Below are positions 36,150 through 45,554 of a DNA stretch of 64,000 nt, in pieces. The notes under the pieces were generated by a model that saw only the letters and a program-made list of their open reading frames with translations, had not been told where the DNA came from and did not search any database. Origin of the DNA: Methanosarcina sp. (lineage in GTDB: Archaea; Halobacteriota; Methanosarcinia; Methanosarcinales; Methanosarcinaceae); the NCBI GenBank assembly GCA_003164755.1, contig PLUB01000075.1, positions 1-64,000 of the forward strand, read 5' to 3'. Both the position numbers and the translations under genes were made by a program. Each line of letters opens with the position of its first letter. Position 1 is the first letter of the stretch.

Positions 36150-37260
36150 ATGCATGACTTAATTATCATAGGTGGTGGCCCTTCCGAAGCATCTGCTGGG
36201 AGAAGGGCAGGAAAGCTTGACCATGATACACTATTGCTTGAGAAAGAAGAATTCCCGAGATACAAGCCCTGCGGTAGAAGGCTTTCAGAAAATGCTATTT
36301 CTGATCTAGATTTAGAGCTCCCTCCAAAAATTATTGAGTGGGAAATAACAGGACCAAAGTTCTTTTTCAAGGAACAGTTTATCAACCTAACAAAAAGCAT
36401 CGATTTTCTGTTCTTATTTTCAGGAACGACTTTGATAATTTTCTTATTGGAAAAGCAAAAAAACAGTAATTGAAATCTATACAACGGAAAAAGTTATCTG
36501 CTGCGAGGAAATATTCATCTATGTTGAAGTGAAGACTAAAAAGACAGTATACAATGCAAAGTTTGCGATCGTTGCAGAAGGAGCACAGGGGGTAGTCAAA
36601 AAATATATGAGGCCTGCCGATATCAGAGGGGAATATGGGATGTGTGTAGTTACAAAAGTACTTGCTAAATTAAAAAAACGGAAGTGTGTCTGGATAATAA
36701 TTTAGAACTGTATTTTGGGATTGCTGTAGGTGGATATGTCTGGATTGTTCCCCACAAAATCTATTGTTCTGTTGGAATTGATGGGGTTGCCAAGGATTCT
36801 AAACATACTAAAAAAATCACAGACTGATATCCTAAGGAAAAATGGCTTTTTCGGCAAGTATGAAATTCATGGACATAAGATCCTAAGAGATGGAGTTGAA
36901 AGGAGATTTATTGATTTAGAATTCTCCTAGTTGGGAGTGCTGTCAGATTTGTGGATGCTTTTTCAGGTGAAGGAAGAGCCTATGTCATTATCTCAGAGCA
37001 ATTTGCTTCTGAAGTGATCGTAGGAATTTTCCGATGTTGTGGAAATCTCAAAGATCTAGACATATATAAAGTCTCTCTGCAAGGCAGAGTGTGGGACTCA
37101 CCTTAAGTACTCGCTGATGTTTTCCAAAATAATGCCTCGTTTTCCTGGCCGAGCATTCAACGTCTTTACTTCCAATGAAAAAATGGCTGATAAGTACCTT
37201 GAGGTTGTAGATTTCAGGCTTAATTATAAAGATTATATCCGTCGGTGTCTTATAAACTTT
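36150..37260 (+). pseudogene. Broken geranylgeranyl-reductase-like gene
   Basis: The 5' part (MHDLIIIGGGPSEASAGRRA, then LLLEKEEFPRYKPCGRRLS) is the FAD-binding start of a geranylgeranyl reductase. From about 36430 the frame is lost, and homologous pieces continue in other frames: FAIVAEGAQGVVKKYMRP, WIVPHK.YCSVGIDG, RFVDAFSGEGRAYVI, and the C-terminal YLEVVDFRLNYKDYIRRCL. It aligns along its length with the intact gene immediately downstream and is its decayed tandem copy. Confidence 0.85.
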
Positions 37261-37290
37261 AAACTCATGTAATTGAGCAGGTTTTTCAAT

Positions 37291-38430
37291 ATGTATGATC
37301 TGATTATAGTAGGAGGAGGACCTTCAGGAGCATCTGCTGGAAGGACAGCTGGAAAACAGGGGCTTTCAACCCTTCTGCTTGAGAAAGAACATTTTCCGAG
37401 GTACAAATCTTGTGGGGGTGCTCTTTCTTCATATGGTTTATCTTGTCTAGATTTCAGTCTTCCTGAGTATGTTGTTGAGAGATATATTCCAAAGGTAAAG
37501 ATTCATTTCATGGACGGTTTTGTAGAGGCAGAGAAGGAAGGTAACTTAGCCTTATTAATTTCCAGAACGGTTTTTGACTATTTTCTGCTTGAAAAAGCTA
37601 AAGAAACTGGAATTGAAGTTCATACCGGAGAAAAGGTTCTGGATTGTATTGGGAAAGAAGATTTCGTTGAGGTAAGGACCACGGACAACACCTATCTTGG
37701 GAAATTTGTTCTGATTGCAGAAGGCTCAGGTGGATCTCTTAAATACAAAGTTAGATCAAAAGATAAAAGAACAGAATACTGTCTTGGTCTTGTGTCCGAA
37801 ATTCCTGATGATGATGAGGCAATACAGAGTCAGTGTCCAGACACTTTAGATATCCACTTCGGGATTGCACAGGGAGGATATGGCTGGATTTTTCCTCACG
37901 CAGGATACTATTCTGTAGGAGTCATGGGAATAGCTCAATATTTTAAGAATCCGAAAAGAGTAATGATGGATTTTTTGCAGGAAAATGGTTTTGCTGGCAT
38001 TTTTCCTATTCGTTCTCACATTATCCCTATAGGTGGAATAGCAAGAAAAACAGTAAAGTCAAGATTTCTTCTGAGCGGGGATGCTGCGGGGTTTGTAGAA
38101 GCTTTTTCAGGAGAAGGGATGGCATATGCTATTAGATCCGGACAACTTGCTGCGGAGACCATTGCAGGCATTATGATGTATGGCAGAAAGTTAAATGACA
38201 TTCAAAAATACGAATCAAGATGCAGACAGGAATTTGGGAACTACCTTGCCAGTTCTCTTAAATTGGAGAAGGCAATGCATCGTTTTCCAGAAATCTCTTT
38301 CAAACTGGCTGTGAGCAACAGGGAAATTCTTGAGAAATATCTGGATGAAGTAGTGATCAATAGAAACTACAAAGGTTATGTTCAGTGGTTATTGCTTAAT
38401 TTTTTCTGGCTGAACATGCCTCCAAAATAA
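37291..38430 (+). CDS. Geranylgeranyl reductase family flavoprotein
   Basis: A 379-residue FAD-dependent reductase: the dinucleotide motif LIIVGGGPSGASAGRTAG, the PRYKSCGGALS loop, LIAEGSGGSLK, GYGWIFPHAGYYSVG, and SGDAAGFVEAFSGEGMAYAI for FAD. Family members saturate the isoprenoid chains of archaeal lipids or quinone-like carriers such as methanophenazine; the substrate here is not visible. The frame begins at a TTG (37273), but the ATG at 37291 starts the conserved core. It lies in tandem with a pseudogene copy. It is probably a paralogue rather than the only lipid reductase. Confidence 0.85.
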   Translation: MYDLIIVGGGPSGASAGRTAGKQGLSTLLLEKEHFPRYKSCGGALSSYGLSCLDFSLPEYVVERYIPKVKIHFMDGFVEAEKEGNLALLISRTVFDYFLLEKAKETGIEVHTGEKVLDCIGKEDFVEVRTTDNTYLGKFVLIAEGSGGSLKYKVRSKDKRTEYCLGLVSEIPDDDEAIQSQCPDTLDIHFGIAQGGYGWIFPHAGYYSVGVMGIAQYFKNPKRVMMDFLQENGFAGIFPIRSHIIPIGGIARKTVKSRFLLSGDAAGFVEAFSGEGMAYAIRSGQLAAETIAGIMMYGRKLNDIQKYESRCRQEFGNYLASSLKLEKAMHRFPEISFKLAVSNREILEKYLDEVVINRNYKGYVQWLLLNFFWLNMPPK

Positions 38431-39648: not shown

Positions 39649-40788
39649 ATGAGTGATTGTCTGTTCGATTTGCATATTGGCTATGTCCGTTTTAAAAATC
39701 CTATCACACTAGCTTCAATGGCAGGAATTGTAGATAGTGGTTTTGCTAACAAGTATGCAAGTAATGCAGGTCTGGTAGTTCTTGGAGCTTTCAATCTGGA
39801 TAAGGCTTCAATGACTGTTGCATCAGATCTAGTAGCAATGGGTAGAAAAGAGTTCATCTCCGATGAACCCATGGAACTTATAAAAAAGGAAATTCGGGCA
39901 ATAATGTCCGAAAGTGCAGTTGCGGTAAATGTCAGAAGTACTAAACTCGAATCCCTCATCGAAGCTGCAAAACTCATAAAAGAAGAGGGGGCAATCCTTG
40001 AGTTAAATGCCCATTGCAGGCAACTGGAAATGCTCGAGGTAGGAATAGGGGAAGCTCTACTCCATGATTTTCCACGACTTTCTACTTGGATCAAGGCGAT
40101 AAAGGAGACTGGAGTCGTACTTTCAGTAAAAGTGAGGGCAAACGTTGTTGATGACATAGAGCTTGCAAGGCTCATAGATATGTCAGGTGCCGACATAATG
40201 CACTCTGACGCTAGCCGAAATGATTTTGGGGCTGACCTTGATGCGATCAGTAATTACAGGGATGCTACAAGGCTCTTCCTGATAGGTAATAATTCGATCA
40301 CTGATTTTGAAGGAGCAAAGGATATGTTTTCCCGCGGTGCTGACATGGTATCTGTTGCCAGGGGAGTCCTGCAGAATCCTGAACTTATAAGGGAGCTGGT
40401 AGAGAGCGTTAGTTCCTATCAGCGATCCATTGGCTGGTATAATGTTCCTAAGCACGTGTGCAGTGATGGTGACTTCAGAGCTCTGGCTTTTTGTTGCCGT
40501 CCTGTTAAACCCTGCTCTGTGCACGAAAAATTTCGAAAATTGGGTTATACAGCAGAAGAATTTGCCAAGACGAAGTTTGACTTTGCGAAGGGAACTATGC
40601 TGGAGTTCGGAGGAGATACCTGCTTCGGAAGCCTGGTTTGGTGTTGTAAAATCACCAAGCCCTGCTGGCTTAGGGATGGTGCGTTAAACACAATTGGTCT
40701 CTCTGATGTAGAGTACATGAAACTTAAAAAGCAACTGGCCGAATACTTACTGGATAATGCTAGGGTCCCTGTAAATGAGTCCCATTAA
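39649..40788 (+). CDS. Methanogenesis marker protein 9
   Basis: A 379-residue protein with an N-terminal FMN-type TIM barrel like dihydrouridine synthase (NPITLASMAGIVDSGFA, ELNAHCRQLEMLEVG, SVKVRANVVDD, MVSVARGVLQNPEL). It has a C-terminal Cys-rich domain with FCCRPVKPCSVHEKF and LVWCCKITKPCWLRDG. That cysteine-rich end is characteristic of methanogenesis marker 9, a family found across methanogens with no confirmed function. The tRNA-dihydrouridine synthase resemblance may be structural only. The ATG at 39649 follows TTAAGAGGTAAAAC. The end overlaps the next gene by 14 bases. Confidence 0.85.
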   Translation: MSDCLFDLHIGYVRFKNPITLASMAGIVDSGFANKYASNAGLVVLGAFNLDKASMTVASDLVAMGRKEFISDEPMELIKKEIRAIMSESAVAVNVRSTKLESLIEAAKLIKEEGAILELNAHCRQLEMLEVGIGEALLHDFPRLSTWIKAIKETGVVLSVKVRANVVDDIELARLIDMSGADIMHSDASRNDFGADLDAISNYRDATRLFLIGNNSITDFEGAKDMFSRGADMVSVARGVLQNPELIRELVESVSSYQRSIGWYNVPKHVCSDGDFRALAFCCRPVKPCSVHEKFRKLGYTAEEFAKTKFDFAKGTMLEFGGDTCFGSLVWCCKITKPCWLRDGALNTIGLSDVEYMKLKKQLAEYLLDNARVPVNESH

Positions 40789-41803
40789 TATCGATTTTTC
40801 CTGTCCCATGCCTGACGGGGCGGAAGACCCACAGATCATAAGTCTTATTGCTCGTTGTGCTCAGCTTGCTATGTTGCTGGAGGTCTCTGCTTCTCCCAAG
40901 CCGGGAAATATAGATCGGGAACATAACTATCCGGATACCTGTTTTGAGCATTTTATAGCTTCTTCAGTGAGTGTTTATCCTACAATTGAAATGGCTGCAA
41001 GAAGTAAGAGTGGAATAGGGGCGCTTTTCAGGAGTGCAGTTTGTGAGAGTTCTGCTTGGCAACAGGGAGGCAATACTCATTTTGGGGCTTTTCTATTACT
41101 GATTCCCCTTTCAATGGCTGCGGGAGAATTATTACATTCAAGTGGGAAAGTCCGTTGTGAGCTTTCACCAGAAAAATTTGAGGATCTTGCTTCCCGTGCT
41201 TATTTTTTTGTCAGAGCAACGGACTGTGAGGATGCTGTCGAATTTTATAGGGCTTTCGATATGGCAGGAGTTAGAGTAAACAGTGTGGATGAATTTAGCC
41301 TTGAAGATCTCAAATCAACTGCTGAACTCAGGGGGCAAAAAGTTACGCTTTATGAGCTCATGGGGATGGCTGAAGGATATGATATGATTGCAGGGGAATG
41401 GGTATCAGGATTCGGCTGCTGCCTTGAAGGAGCAAATAGTATAACAAAGTTCATGCAATCCAGAAGTTCAGGAGTAGAATACTCAGTTTTGAACTGTTCG
41501 GGTTCAGATATCAACGAAGCTATAGTATATACATTTTTGAAATTGCTTTCCAGGCACAGAGACACTTTTATCCAGACAAAATTCGATAAAGCTACTGCAG
41601 ATTACGTATCATCCAGGGCATGTGATCTTCTACTGGCCTATGAAAAGCCTTCAGACAATGGGATCATCGACTTTGCATCTATGCTTCCTGCAGTAAAGGA
41701 ATTTGACATCGAACTTCTTAAAAAGAGAATCAATCCAGGTTCAACAGCGGACATCGTTATTGCCGGAATTTTCATTGCTCTTCTGGGAGGATTACGCTTT
41801 TGA
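40775..41803 (+). CDS. CitG-like (triphosphoribosyl-dephospho-CoA synthase family) protein
   Basis: A 342-residue member of the CitG/MdcB family, which transfers nucleotide phosphoribosyl units. The core is visible: LEVSASPKPGNIDRE, then SSAWQQGGNTHFGAFLLLIP (the GGNTHFG motif), and DINEAIVYTFLKLLSRHRDT. Methanogens lack citrate lyase, so the true substrate must differ; the family recurs in clusters for C1 cofactor synthesis in methylotrophs. It starts inside the end of mmp9 and ends overlapping the DUF447 start, so the three are co-translated. A pterin or related nucleotide cofactor role is inference. Confidence 0.8.
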   Translation: MSPINIDFSCPMPDGAEDPQIISLIARCAQLAMLLEVSASPKPGNIDREHNYPDTCFEHFIASSVSVYPTIEMAARSKSGIGALFRSAVCESSAWQQGGNTHFGAFLLLIPLSMAAGELLHSSGKVRCELSPEKFEDLASRAYFFVRATDCEDAVEFYRAFDMAGVRVNSVDEFSLEDLKSTAELRGQKVTLYELMGMAEGYDMIAGEWVSGFGCCLEGANSITKFMQSRSSGVEYSVLNCSGSDINEAIVYTFLKLLSRHRDTFIQTKFDKATADYVSSRACDLLLAYEKPSDNGIIDFASMLPAVKEFDIELLKKRINPGSTADIVIAGIFIALLGGLRF

Positions 41804-42438
41804 CCAAACTTTTCTCTGAATATTCAAAGTACGGAAGTGAATTTTCCACTGTAGATATTTCCGCATTCGGAATCCTGGAAGGAATTTCCGAAACAATTGT
41901 AAGCACAGGTCTGAAATATCCTAATGCTGCTCCAATTGGAATAATCGTGAAGGATGGAAAGTATTTTGTCAGACTTTTCAGAGGTAGTCATACTTGGGCA
42001 AATGTCCTTAAAGAAGGATATATGGGCGCAAACGTAGTTTATAATCCTCTGCTTTTTGTACGTTCAACTTTTTTCGACCTTGAACCTTCTGAGTTTGACT
42101 ATGTGCCTGCTCACAAGCTCAATTTTCCCGTCCTGAAAGAAGCTGCAGCTTGGATCATTTTCAAATGCATTAATGTAATGAACACAGATCAGACCCTAGT
42201 AGCAGATCTTATTCCCATGAATGCAGGTTTCAATGAGGTTCATAAAAAAAATATTCTGGTTCCAAACAGAGGATTCAATGCAGTGCTTGAAGCTACTGTT
42301 CATGCAACCCGCTACCAGCTCTCAGGCGACAAAAAATACATCGAATTGATCCAGCATTATGAAAATTTAGCTTCCAAGTGTGGAGGAGAAAATGAGAAAA
42401 AGGCAATGAAATTGCTTCATGAAGTGCTGGAGTTCTGA
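41800..42438 (+). CDS. DUF447 family protein
   Basis: A 212-residue DUF447 protein: FGILEGISETIVSTGLKYPN, APIGIIVKDGKYFVRLFRGS, TWANVLKEGYMGANVVYNPL and VPNRGFNAVLEATVHATRYQ. The fold is predicted in the literature to be flavin-reductase-like, from memory. The start is a TTG at 41800 overlapping the previous stop by three bases, with CTGGGAGGA nine bases upstream; no ATG fits. Third and last gene of the mmp9 operon. In methylotrophic bacteria DUF447 genes occur in tetrahydromethanopterin/methanofuran gene clusters, which fits a cofactor role here. Confidence 0.82.
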   Translation: MTKLFSEYSKYGSEFSTVDISAFGILEGISETIVSTGLKYPNAAPIGIIVKDGKYFVRLFRGSHTWANVLKEGYMGANVVYNPLLFVRSTFFDLEPSEFDYVPAHKLNFPVLKEAAAWIIFKCINVMNTDQTLVADLIPMNAGFNEVHKKNILVPNRGFNAVLEATVHATRYQLSGDKKYIELIQHYENLASKCGGENEKKAMKLLHEVLEF

Positions 42439-43508
42439 CTCTTTTTATGGCTTACATCTGCTTTACACAAGTGCTGATAGGTTCTTTTTTTCATTATTTG
42501 TTATCTCAAATCCTTTGTTAGAAAATTATATTATCCTTCTACTATGTTCTTTATTTTCATGAGTTCTAAGCGGATTTCATTTGGTATTAAAAGTGCTGGT
42601 AATTTTTTGGGTCACAGTTACTAGGTCTCAAATAAAATTGAGCTTAAATATCCCATATTTCCGTAGTTCCAAAATCATTTCTACAAATCAAAGAATATTT
42701 ATAAAGTTATTTAAGGTACTGAAGCAGTTGCTTAGGACAATAGCAGTGAACCTTTTTGTTATGGCAGTGACCTTTCTAGCAAAATAAAAGTACCAAATTC
42801 GAACACTATCATAACCACAAAGCTAAGGTTTCTTCGTCTAAAGGCTCCAAGGCTAAATTGAATGATTCAAAATATAAAACTTATTTGAATAAACATGAAC
42901 AAAAAAACCACTCCAAAAACCATGAAGCAGAAAAAAATCACCAATGTGACGTAGATAAAAAATAGTTTGATTTTCATTTCCATTAAATGAAAGTAGTGAC
43001 AGAAACGACAAATCTCGGTCCTGGCTTCTAGTGATCCAAAAATCATTGATAAAGCAAAACGATTAATGACCATTATAATGGAATTATGAAAACTGACTGC
43101 ACTTTCACTCTAATATTATGAGTGAGATATAATTCAAATATTGGAAGGTATCATAATCACACCGGTTTTTATTTCTATTGATTGTTATTTCACTTATATT
43201 GATTAATTCTATTGCTATTTTATTTAGTATTTACTTCGTTATATTATATATTAGTCAGATTTTCGACTCTTGACATCAAAAAATGGCTGATGGTGGGGCT
43301 ATTTAAGGCATGTTCTTGAGTCGGCTTTGCACTTAATGTCAGAACTTACTAAACACTCGTAGTGATTTTGTGTACAAAAATTAATTTTATAATTATGCAC
43401 CATCAAAAAAGATTATTGAAAATTTTTGTTTTGTAGTAAAAGTATGTTTGTGTAACAGTTATATAACTTTTAATTTATTCCTGTATATAAAATGAGTTGA
43501 GGGTAATG
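42439..43508. other. Gene-free AT-rich DNA
   Basis: Open frames at 42581-42787 (plus) and 42867-43073 (minus) have hydrophobic, low-complexity products and no ribosome binding sites, so I do not call them. 'cggctttgcactta' near 43322 echoes the palindrome at 34361 without forming a hairpin. Confidence 0.45.
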
Positions 43509-43901: not shown

Positions 43902-45554
43902 GTGGCAGGACAGCCAATATTCATTTTAAAAGAAGGAAGTAAGCGAACCAGAGGCAGGGATGCCCAAAGCAACAACATCATGGCTGCAAAGGCAGTAGCT
44001 GAAGCGGTCAGAACAACCCTAGGTCCCAAGGGTATGGACAAAATGCTCGTTGATTCAATGGGAGATGTGGTCATTACAAATGACGGGGCAACCATTCTCA
44101 AAGAAATGGACATCGAACACCCTGCAGCAAAGATGGTAGTAGAAGTAGCTAAAACCCAGGATGAACAAGTCGGAGACGGTACTACCAGTGCAGCTGTAGT
44201 CGCAGGTGAACTCTTAAAGAAAGCTGAAGACTTAATCGAACAGGAAATCCACCCGACAATTATTGCATCAGGGTACAGGCTTGCAGCCGAAAAAGCCGTG
44301 GAAGTTCTTAACTCCTTGGCAATGCCAGTAACCATTTCTAACCGTGACCTTCTAATCAGCATCGCTGAAACTGCAATGACTGGAAAGGCTGCGGAGTTCG
44401 CCAAAAAGCTTCTCTCTAATATTTCAGTTGATGCTGTCACAAGCATTGTTGACACAAACGGGAAGAACATTATTGATAAAGAAAATATCAATGTTGTTAA
44501 GAAGGTCGGTGGCAAGGTGGAAGACTCTGAATTTATTCAGGGCATGATTATTGATAAGGAAAGAATCCACCCCAATATGCCTCAAAAGGTTAAGGATGCA
44601 AAGATCATGCTCCTCAACACTGCAATTGAACTCAAGGACACTGAAATAGATGCAGAAATCTCTATAACCTCTCCAGACCAGCTTCAATCCTTCCTTGACC
44701 AGGAAGAGCAGATGTTAAAAAAGATAGTTCAGAGGGTTATCGGTAGCAAGGCAAATGTTGTCTTTTGTCAGAAGGGGATTGAAGATCTTGCCCAGCACTA
44801 CCTTGCAAAGGCAGGAATTTTTGCTGTTCGGAGGGTTAAAAAAAGCGATATGGAAAAGCTTGCAAGAGCAACAGGTGGCAAACTCATTACTAACCTAGAT
44901 GAGGTCACTCCTGAAGACCTTGGATACGCAGGACTCGTAGAGGAGAAAAAGGTCGGCGGGGACCACATGACCTTTGTCACAGGTTGCCACAACCCGAAGG
45001 CTGTAAGCATCCTGCTTCGTGGTGGCACAGAGCATGTAGTTGAAAGTATAAACAGTGCTCTTGAAGATGCACTTCGTGTGGTAGCAGTTGCAATTGAGGA
45101 CGGAAAGCTCGTTGCAGGCGGTGGCTCTCCTGAAGTTGAAGTTGCACTAAGGCTCCAGGAATATGCAGCAACTCTTGAAGGCAGAGAACAGCTTGCAGTG
45201 AAGGCCTATGCCGAAGCTCTCGAAGTTATTCCAAGAACTCTTGCAGAAAATGCCGGACTCGATCCCATTGACATGCTCATGGAGCTGCGTTCCCAACATG
45301 AGAAGGGTGTTAAAACTGCAGGGCTTAACGTTTTCGAAGGCAAGGTTGTTGACATGTGGAAGGATTTCGTAGTTGAACCTCTCAGAGTCAAGACTCAGGT
45401 CATTAATGCCGCAACCGAGTCTGCAGTTATGATCCTAAGGATCGACGATGTAATTGCTTCTACTCGTGCAGCCCCTGGCCCAGAAGAAGGAATGCCTCCA
45501 GGAATGGGCGGAATGCCTCCAGGAATGGGCGGAATGCCTCCTGGAATGATGTAA
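43902..45554 (+). CDS. thsB: Thermosome subunit (group II chaperonin)
   Basis: A 550-residue HSP60 group II chaperonin that folds proteins in an ATP-driven double-ring cage. ATPase motifs are [22 protein letters not shown] and GDGTTSAAV (GDGTT at 91-95), with [11 protein letters not shown] near the C-terminal equatorial part and a Gly-Met-Pro tail of three GMPPGM repeats. The start is GTG at 43902, preceded by ATGGAGGAG. Methanosarcina species encode several paralogues; which one this is (alpha, beta or gamma) I cannot say, so the symbol is tentative. Convergent with cdc6, with a terminator hairpin between. Confidence 0.93.

Follow-up and report, generated by a model that had tools for sequence, protein, structure and literature searches.

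A CitG-like and a DUF447 protein that accompany beta-RFAP synthase are candidates for two steps of tetrahydromethanopterin synthesis

Introduction

Tetrahydromethanopterin (H4MPT) is the C1 carrier of methanogens, anaerobic methane oxidisers and many methylotrophs. It bears an alpha-ribofuranosyl 5-phosphate on its deoxyribitol, and we know of no gene assigned either to the transfer of the ribosyl phosphate or to the reduction of the ring. CitG splits adenine from ATP and attaches the remaining 5-triphosphoribosyl group to a hydroxyl in alpha linkage.

Beta-RFAP synthase catalyses the first committed step in the synthesis of methanopterin (PMC8305020). Haloarchaea are regarded as folate users, and doubts have been raised about the beta-RFAP synthase homolog that they carry (PMC8305020). 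Gene islands of Methylosinus similar to the bacterial clusters considered below have been described as H4MPT genes (PMC3615186). For coenzyme F420, the enzyme CofX is expected in archaea and is without an assigned gene (PMC6450877).

Here, we analysed a window of 64,000 nucleotides from a Methanosarcina contig (PLUB01000075.1, assembly GCA_003164755.1), in which a sequence-only reading had pointed to an operon of methanogenesis marker 9, a CitG-like enzyme and DUF447 as a possible undescribed step in the making or modification of a methanogenic cofactor. Full-text searches of the open-access literature returned no paper on 'methanogenesis marker 9', none joining DUF447 with tetrahydromethanopterin and none joining triphosphoribosyl-dephospho-CoA with methanopterin.

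Genome sample

The main sample consisted of 147 Halobacteriota genomes with a completeness of at least 90%, to which 14 control genomes and 72,556 plasmid records were added. The archaeal sample is one phylum with controls: a wider contig scan with marker 9 likewise returned Halobacteriota only, and methanogens of other phyla are represented by the M. jannaschii control. The labels ANME-1, Methanothrix and Archaeoglobi were read from the traits of the sampled genomes.

Results

Three overlapping genes are followed by a decayed dmrX

The end-to-start overlap of the three genes that had been reported is exact. All of them lie on the plus strand and belong to the families named (Table 1); marker 9 and the CitG-like gene share 14 bases (40775-40788), the CitG-like gene and DUF447 share 4 (41800-41803). 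The next plus-strand gene after DUF447 encodes a thermosome subunit and starts at 43902. Upstream of the operon, 36150-36473 is an apparent truncated second copy of a FAD-dependent geranylgeranyl-reductase-like gene at 37273-38430.

Table 1. Genes, domain matches and gene relic of the operon (positions in the window)
Feature	Position	Strand	Remarks
Marker 9 gene	39649..40788	+	ATG start, 379 aa
FMN-type TIM barrel of marker 9	39718-40377	+	match, PF01207 and TIGR00736
Cys-rich marker 9 domain	40432-40758	+	match, TIGR03277
CitG-like gene	40775..41803	+	ATG start, 342 aa
DUF447 gene	41800..42438	+	TTG start, 212 aa
Decayed dmrX start	42512..42655	+	about 35 first codons with stop codons, remainder gone

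In sister Methanosarcina genomes, in Methanolobus and in others, the gene 3' of DUF447 is dmrX (TIGR02700), and the intact gene of the sisters occupies the position of the relic. The relic was detected by blastn (68% over 133 bases, E 1.5e-8) and by tblastn, which placed codons 1-35 at 42550-42654 (E 1.4e-5) in reading frames with stops. An AfpA-like relative elsewhere is the only DmrX-related gene found in the genome, which seems to have lost DmrX; because the assembly is 92% complete, a second copy is possible. The dmrX gene of a relative (G105, L044 3520-4112) lies on another contig, is split over two frames and has an internal stop.

The CitG-DUF447 pair tracks beta-RFAP synthase

Among the 147 genomes, matches were found for CitG in 141, for DUF447 in 142, for beta-RFAP synthase (TIGR00144) in 143 (135 above cut-off) and for MCR alpha in 78, all counted genome by genome and uncorrected for kinship. 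A same-strand CitG gene stands immediately 5' of DUF447 in 126 of the 139 genomes that have both, with the 13 exceptions confined to two families, one ANME-1-like (f6) and one other (f16). Marker 9 stands immediately 5' of CitG in 65/65 sampled genomes with a full marker 9. The order marker 9-CitG-DUF447 is kept far beyond chance, and these adjacency counts indicate that CitG-DUF447 is a unit by itself, to which marker 9 has been added in part of the group. Five incomplete genomes have one gene of the pair missing.

The pair tracks beta-RFAP synthase and not MCR. It is present in Archaeoglobi-like genomes (27, with MCR in 3) and in haloarchaea, where MCR is found in none. Of the 26 haloarchaea, 23 have beta-RFAP synthase together with CitG and DUF447, and 3 have none of them; these three genomes belong to two genera, and the joint loss probably happened in two events. 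Within the 14 controls, DUF447 and TIGR00144 match the same four (M. jannaschii, Haloferax, Sulfolobus and M. acetivorans) and CitG matches these four together with E. coli, while cofD has no match in Sulfolobus.

The same association was seen in bacteria. DUF447 was found on 35 bacterial plasmids among the 72,556 records, and a C1-type CitG and beta-RFAP synthase are present on 35/35. The sequence-only reading had placed CitG-like and DUF447 genes in the C1-cofactor clusters of methylotrophs as well, and indeed they occur in clusters of this type in Phyllobacterium, Azospirillum, Azoarcus, Aquabacterium and Thiodictyon. These five share the series beta-RFAP synthase, mtdB, ATP-grasp, mch, RimK-like ligase and CitG, with fae next after CitG except in Aquabacterium. 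Three of the clusters (Phyllobacterium, Azoarcus and Aquabacterium) have DUF447 overlapping DUF6513, with a gene for a flavoprotein alongside; the DUF6513 protein gives a weak match to a pterin-binding domain, under its cut-off. Judged by gene order, the bacterial CitG-type gene probably corresponds to orf7 of methylotrophs and the DUF447 gene to orf19 (PMC3615186). Orf5 does not fit as the CitG gene, given the order mch, RimK-like, CitG, fae, which leads to orf7.

Since the pair nearly always accompanies beta-RFAP synthase, in archaea and bacteria, it probably performs missing steps of H4MPT synthesis. The marker gene to which it is linked being beta-RFAP synthase, we take H4MPT as the target and not flavin or methanofuran. 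A role in methanofuran or another C1 cofactor would explain why DUF447 overlaps mfnB in Azoarcus and Aquabacterium. It is nevertheless very improbable: the pair is kept or lost together with beta-RFAP synthase in haloarchaea, both families match in Sulfolobus, and neither haloarchaea nor Sulfolobus are, to our knowledge, makers of methanofuran, in which we know of no ribosyl phosphate. That the pair acts in the synthesis of an H4MPT-type cofactor is very probable, based on co-occurrence, adjacency, family, fold, a conserved core and the lack of a citrate lyase.

A CitG-family protein apart from CitG and MdcB

The CitG-like protein matches PF01874 over its full length with 240 bits (cut-off 27) and is the only CitG-family gene in its 3.47 Mb genome. 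Both equivalog models were missed by far, TIGR03125 with 39.6 vs 272.3 bits and TIGR03132 with 24.9 vs 282.35 bits. Ten residues (E36, K42, G44, N100, G104, D263, P321, G322, A325 and D326) are invariant in the archaeal and bacterial members and in E. coli CitG. In the tree, the C1-type CitG proteins, archaeal and bacterial C1-cluster members together, are split from CitG/MdcB by a 100/100 branch in a tree that carries a long-branch warning. The lack of a citrate lyase as a target, stated in the sequence-only reading, agrees with our search of the genome for citrate lyase alpha (CitF), which gave no match; among the 147 genomes, CitF matched in one, marginally above cut-off.

The shared catalytic core could speak for an ordinary triphosphoribosyl-dephospho-CoA synthase serving the acyl carrier protein of a lyase or decarboxylase. 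Such a function can hardly be right given the distance to the equivalog cut-offs, the missing citrate lyase alpha and the separate clade, on which grounds we rejected the protein as a true CitG. Furthermore, in Phyllobacterium zundukense a different plasmid encodes a true MdcB in addition to the C1-type CitG.

Because CitG makes an alpha-ribosyl bond and H4MPT carries an alpha-ribofuranosyl 5-phosphate, we propose that the CitG-like protein makes the ribosyl bond of H4MPT. The enzyme would transfer a 5-(tri)phosphoribosyl group in alpha linkage to the hydroxyl at the end of the pterin-aryl-deoxyribitol, with either ATP (losing adenine) or PRPP (losing pyrophosphate) as the donor, and the product would be the alpha-ribofuranosyl 5-phosphate arm. 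Drawings of the pathway show PRPP and not ATP as the ribosyl donor, a point against the proposal. We lean towards this step, whose reaction we infer; the co-occurrence of the pair would also be compatible with different steps in building this arm of H4MPT.

DUF447 is a putative FMN-binding split-barrel flavoprotein

Both halves of the DUF447 protein were recognised (DUF447_N with 98.5 bits, cut-off 24; DUF447_C with 70.9 bits, cut-off 24.8). It is a near-ortholog of PDB 2nr4, M. mazei MM1853, which is 70% identical (E 4.3e-93), and the predicted model (pLDDT 91.1) superimposes on FMN-bound members with TM 0.87-0.96. FMN is bound in the structures 2nr4, 2iml and 2ptf. As the 70% identical solved homolog binds FMN, the window protein is expected to do so as well and is presumably an FMN-binding split-barrel flavoprotein.

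DUF447 would most likely use its flavin for a reduction within this arm of H4MPT. Our best guess is that it opens the ring of the aryl C-ribofuranoside reductively and so yields the 1-aryl-1-deoxyribitol. For a flavin enzyme, hydride transfer that opens an aminoaryl C-riboside would be plausible chemistry. The ring opening remains a tentative assignment, with the balance somewhat against it, and is weaker than that of the CitG step.

Marker 9 has a different distribution and different partners

The marker 9 protein scores 172.7 bits against TIGR03277 (cut-off 96.2). Its predicted structure (pLDDT 92.7) has Dus, DHODH B and dihydropyrimidine dehydrogenase (DPD) as nearest solved folds. In the C domain, eight Cys are invariant; they are arranged in two CC-x5-C repeats and may form metal or Fe-S sites. 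Another Dus-like gene is present in the same genome at C113:81982. A Methanothrix-like marker 9 (L055 5400-6377) has lost the NAHCRQ motif and kept the 8-Cys domain, and two families (f8, f16) have weak stand-alone matches to this domain.

A full marker 9 is present in 65/147 genomes, 61 of them with MCR, and is missing from ANME-1-like genomes and from MCR-bearing Archaeoglobi. Ca. Mnemosynella biddleae (G129, L087), an Archaeoglobi relative, has the full marker 9-CitG-DUF447 run and no MCR alpha match. The protein had been called methanogen-specific. This description does not hold for its N-terminal two thirds, a Dus/DHODH-class barrel that occurs in haloarchaea and Archaeoglobi, and applies at most to the Cys-rich C domain. 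In Methanoperedens and ANME-2, as seen in a wider set of named loci, marker 9 stands away from CitG-DUF447. At several Methanoperedens loci it adjoins a conserved gene run, which we take from reading the sequences to be fpo/nuo genes. Marker 9 is a separate protein with an FMN-type TIM barrel and a Cys-rich domain, joined to the operon in methanogens. The comparison of gene neighbourhoods that had been proposed ties CitG and DUF447 together and links them to a C1 cofactor, and finds marker 9 uncoupled elsewhere. The idea of one pathway for all three genes is not supported, given this uncoupling, the different distribution of marker 9 and a haloarchaeal homolog that goes with cofD.

The haloarchaeal homolog is a TIM barrel without the Cys-rich domain. 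Its match begins 57-168 bases after the cofD match in 25/25 haloarchaeal genomes, including the three without CitG and DUF447. On a Natrinema plasmid and in two genomes (G032, G038), the cofD-TIM and CitG-DUF447 pairs lie apart from each other. A cluster of cofD, TIM barrel, CitG and DUF447 was observed at haloarchaeal loci. The TIM barrel was rejected as part of the unit that is lost jointly in haloarchaea, as it stays with cofD. At six Archaeoglobi-like loci, the TIGR00736 TIM barrel lies directly 3' of dapF, often overlapping it, and a partnership with cofD was rejected as a general rule because of this neighbour.

These neighbours raise the question of F420 synthesis, in which the FMN barrel of marker 9 would reduce an enolpyruvyl to an L-lactyl group, the archaeal CofX step, with dehydro-F420-0, EPPG or PEP as the substrate. 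The position directly after cofD in 25/25 haloarchaea, where the homolog is kept with cofD when the pair is lost, is consistent with such a role, as are a run of cofD, marker 9, CitG, DUF447 and dmrX in one MCR-positive genome (G001, L009) and the fold class (DHODH B, Dus, DPD), whose members reduce or form a C=C beside a carbonyl or carboxylate. On the other hand, archaeal CofC favours 2-phospholactate in vitro (PMC8764529) and the TIM match is missing in many genomes with cofD. The Archaeoglobi homolog is beside dapF instead of cofD, most methanogens show no cofD link, the ANME pattern fits poorly, and the Methanothrix-type protein is without the NAHCRQ active-site motif. We therefore regard marker 9 as CofX as a possibility of rather low probability. 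It is compatible with H4MPT as the product of the pair, in which case the operon would combine genes for two cofactors that C1 metabolism uses jointly.

Marker 9 could also be a dihydromethanopterin reductase that catalyses the last H4MPT step, replacing DmrX or acting besides it, which would return all three genes to one pathway. Methanomicrobia-like families with marker 9 and without DmrX or a convincing AfpA-like match fit this assignment, and so does the window genome, which lost dmrX and retains marker 9. It is unlikely, however, with marker 9 and an intact dmrX in one operon of sister Methanosarcina, some Archaeoglobi without DmrX, AfpA-like or marker 9 matches, and a TIM homolog that persists in haloarchaea lacking beta-RFAP synthase. 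As both occur in one operon of sister genomes, a simple exchange of DmrX for marker 9 is not supported.

Discussion

Our results suggest that the CitG-like and DUF447 proteins form a conserved two-enzyme unit downstream of beta-RFAP synthase. We consider this explanation as a whole more likely than not, with both reactions and their order presumed. Coming and going with beta-RFAP synthase, the pair provides two named candidates for H4MPT steps. The marker 9/TIM homolog is a concrete candidate for the side-chain reductase of archaeal F420.

The haloarchaeal data question the view that the beta-RFAP synthase homolog of these organisms (HVO_2628 type) does not take part in a methanopterin-like pathway. 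Three haloarchaea keep cofD-TIM and lose the pair together with the homolog, a pattern that speaks for a working homolog in the others. A loss of Mch along with the pair was rejected, Mch being present in 29/29 genomes tested, and since Mch is kept when the three genes are lost, the haloarchaeal product may be another compound. The full combination of a CitG-like transferase, a DUF447 ring opener, marker 9 as the lactyl reductase and an H4MPT-like compound in haloarchaea is decidedly unlikely to be correct in all its parts.

In comparison with known systems, the CitG-like protein has its Pfam family and core residues in common with the triphosphoribosyl-dephospho-CoA synthases CitG and MdcB, but its partners are DUF447 and C1 genes, it belongs to another clade and a citrate lyase is missing. 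The H4MPT islands of bacteria have the CitG and DUF447 families in common with the archaeal operon, always along with beta-RFAP synthase; there, however, the two genes are apart, CitG after the RimK-like ligase and DUF447 after DUF6513. The DUF447 protein has a nearly identical fold to 2nr4 (MM1853), 2iml and 2ptf, structures that carry no function assignment. DmrX, the dihydromethanopterin reductase, is the fourth gene of the operon in sister genomes, whereas only a decayed start is left here. With the MJ0144-type and Dus-like TIM barrels (TIGR00736), marker 9 shares the fold and the conserved Cys motif NAHCRQ in the N domain, but it has an additional 8-Cys C domain and scores below the cut-offs (50.5 vs 293.3 bits for the DusB equivalog, with the TIGR00736 cut-off also missed).
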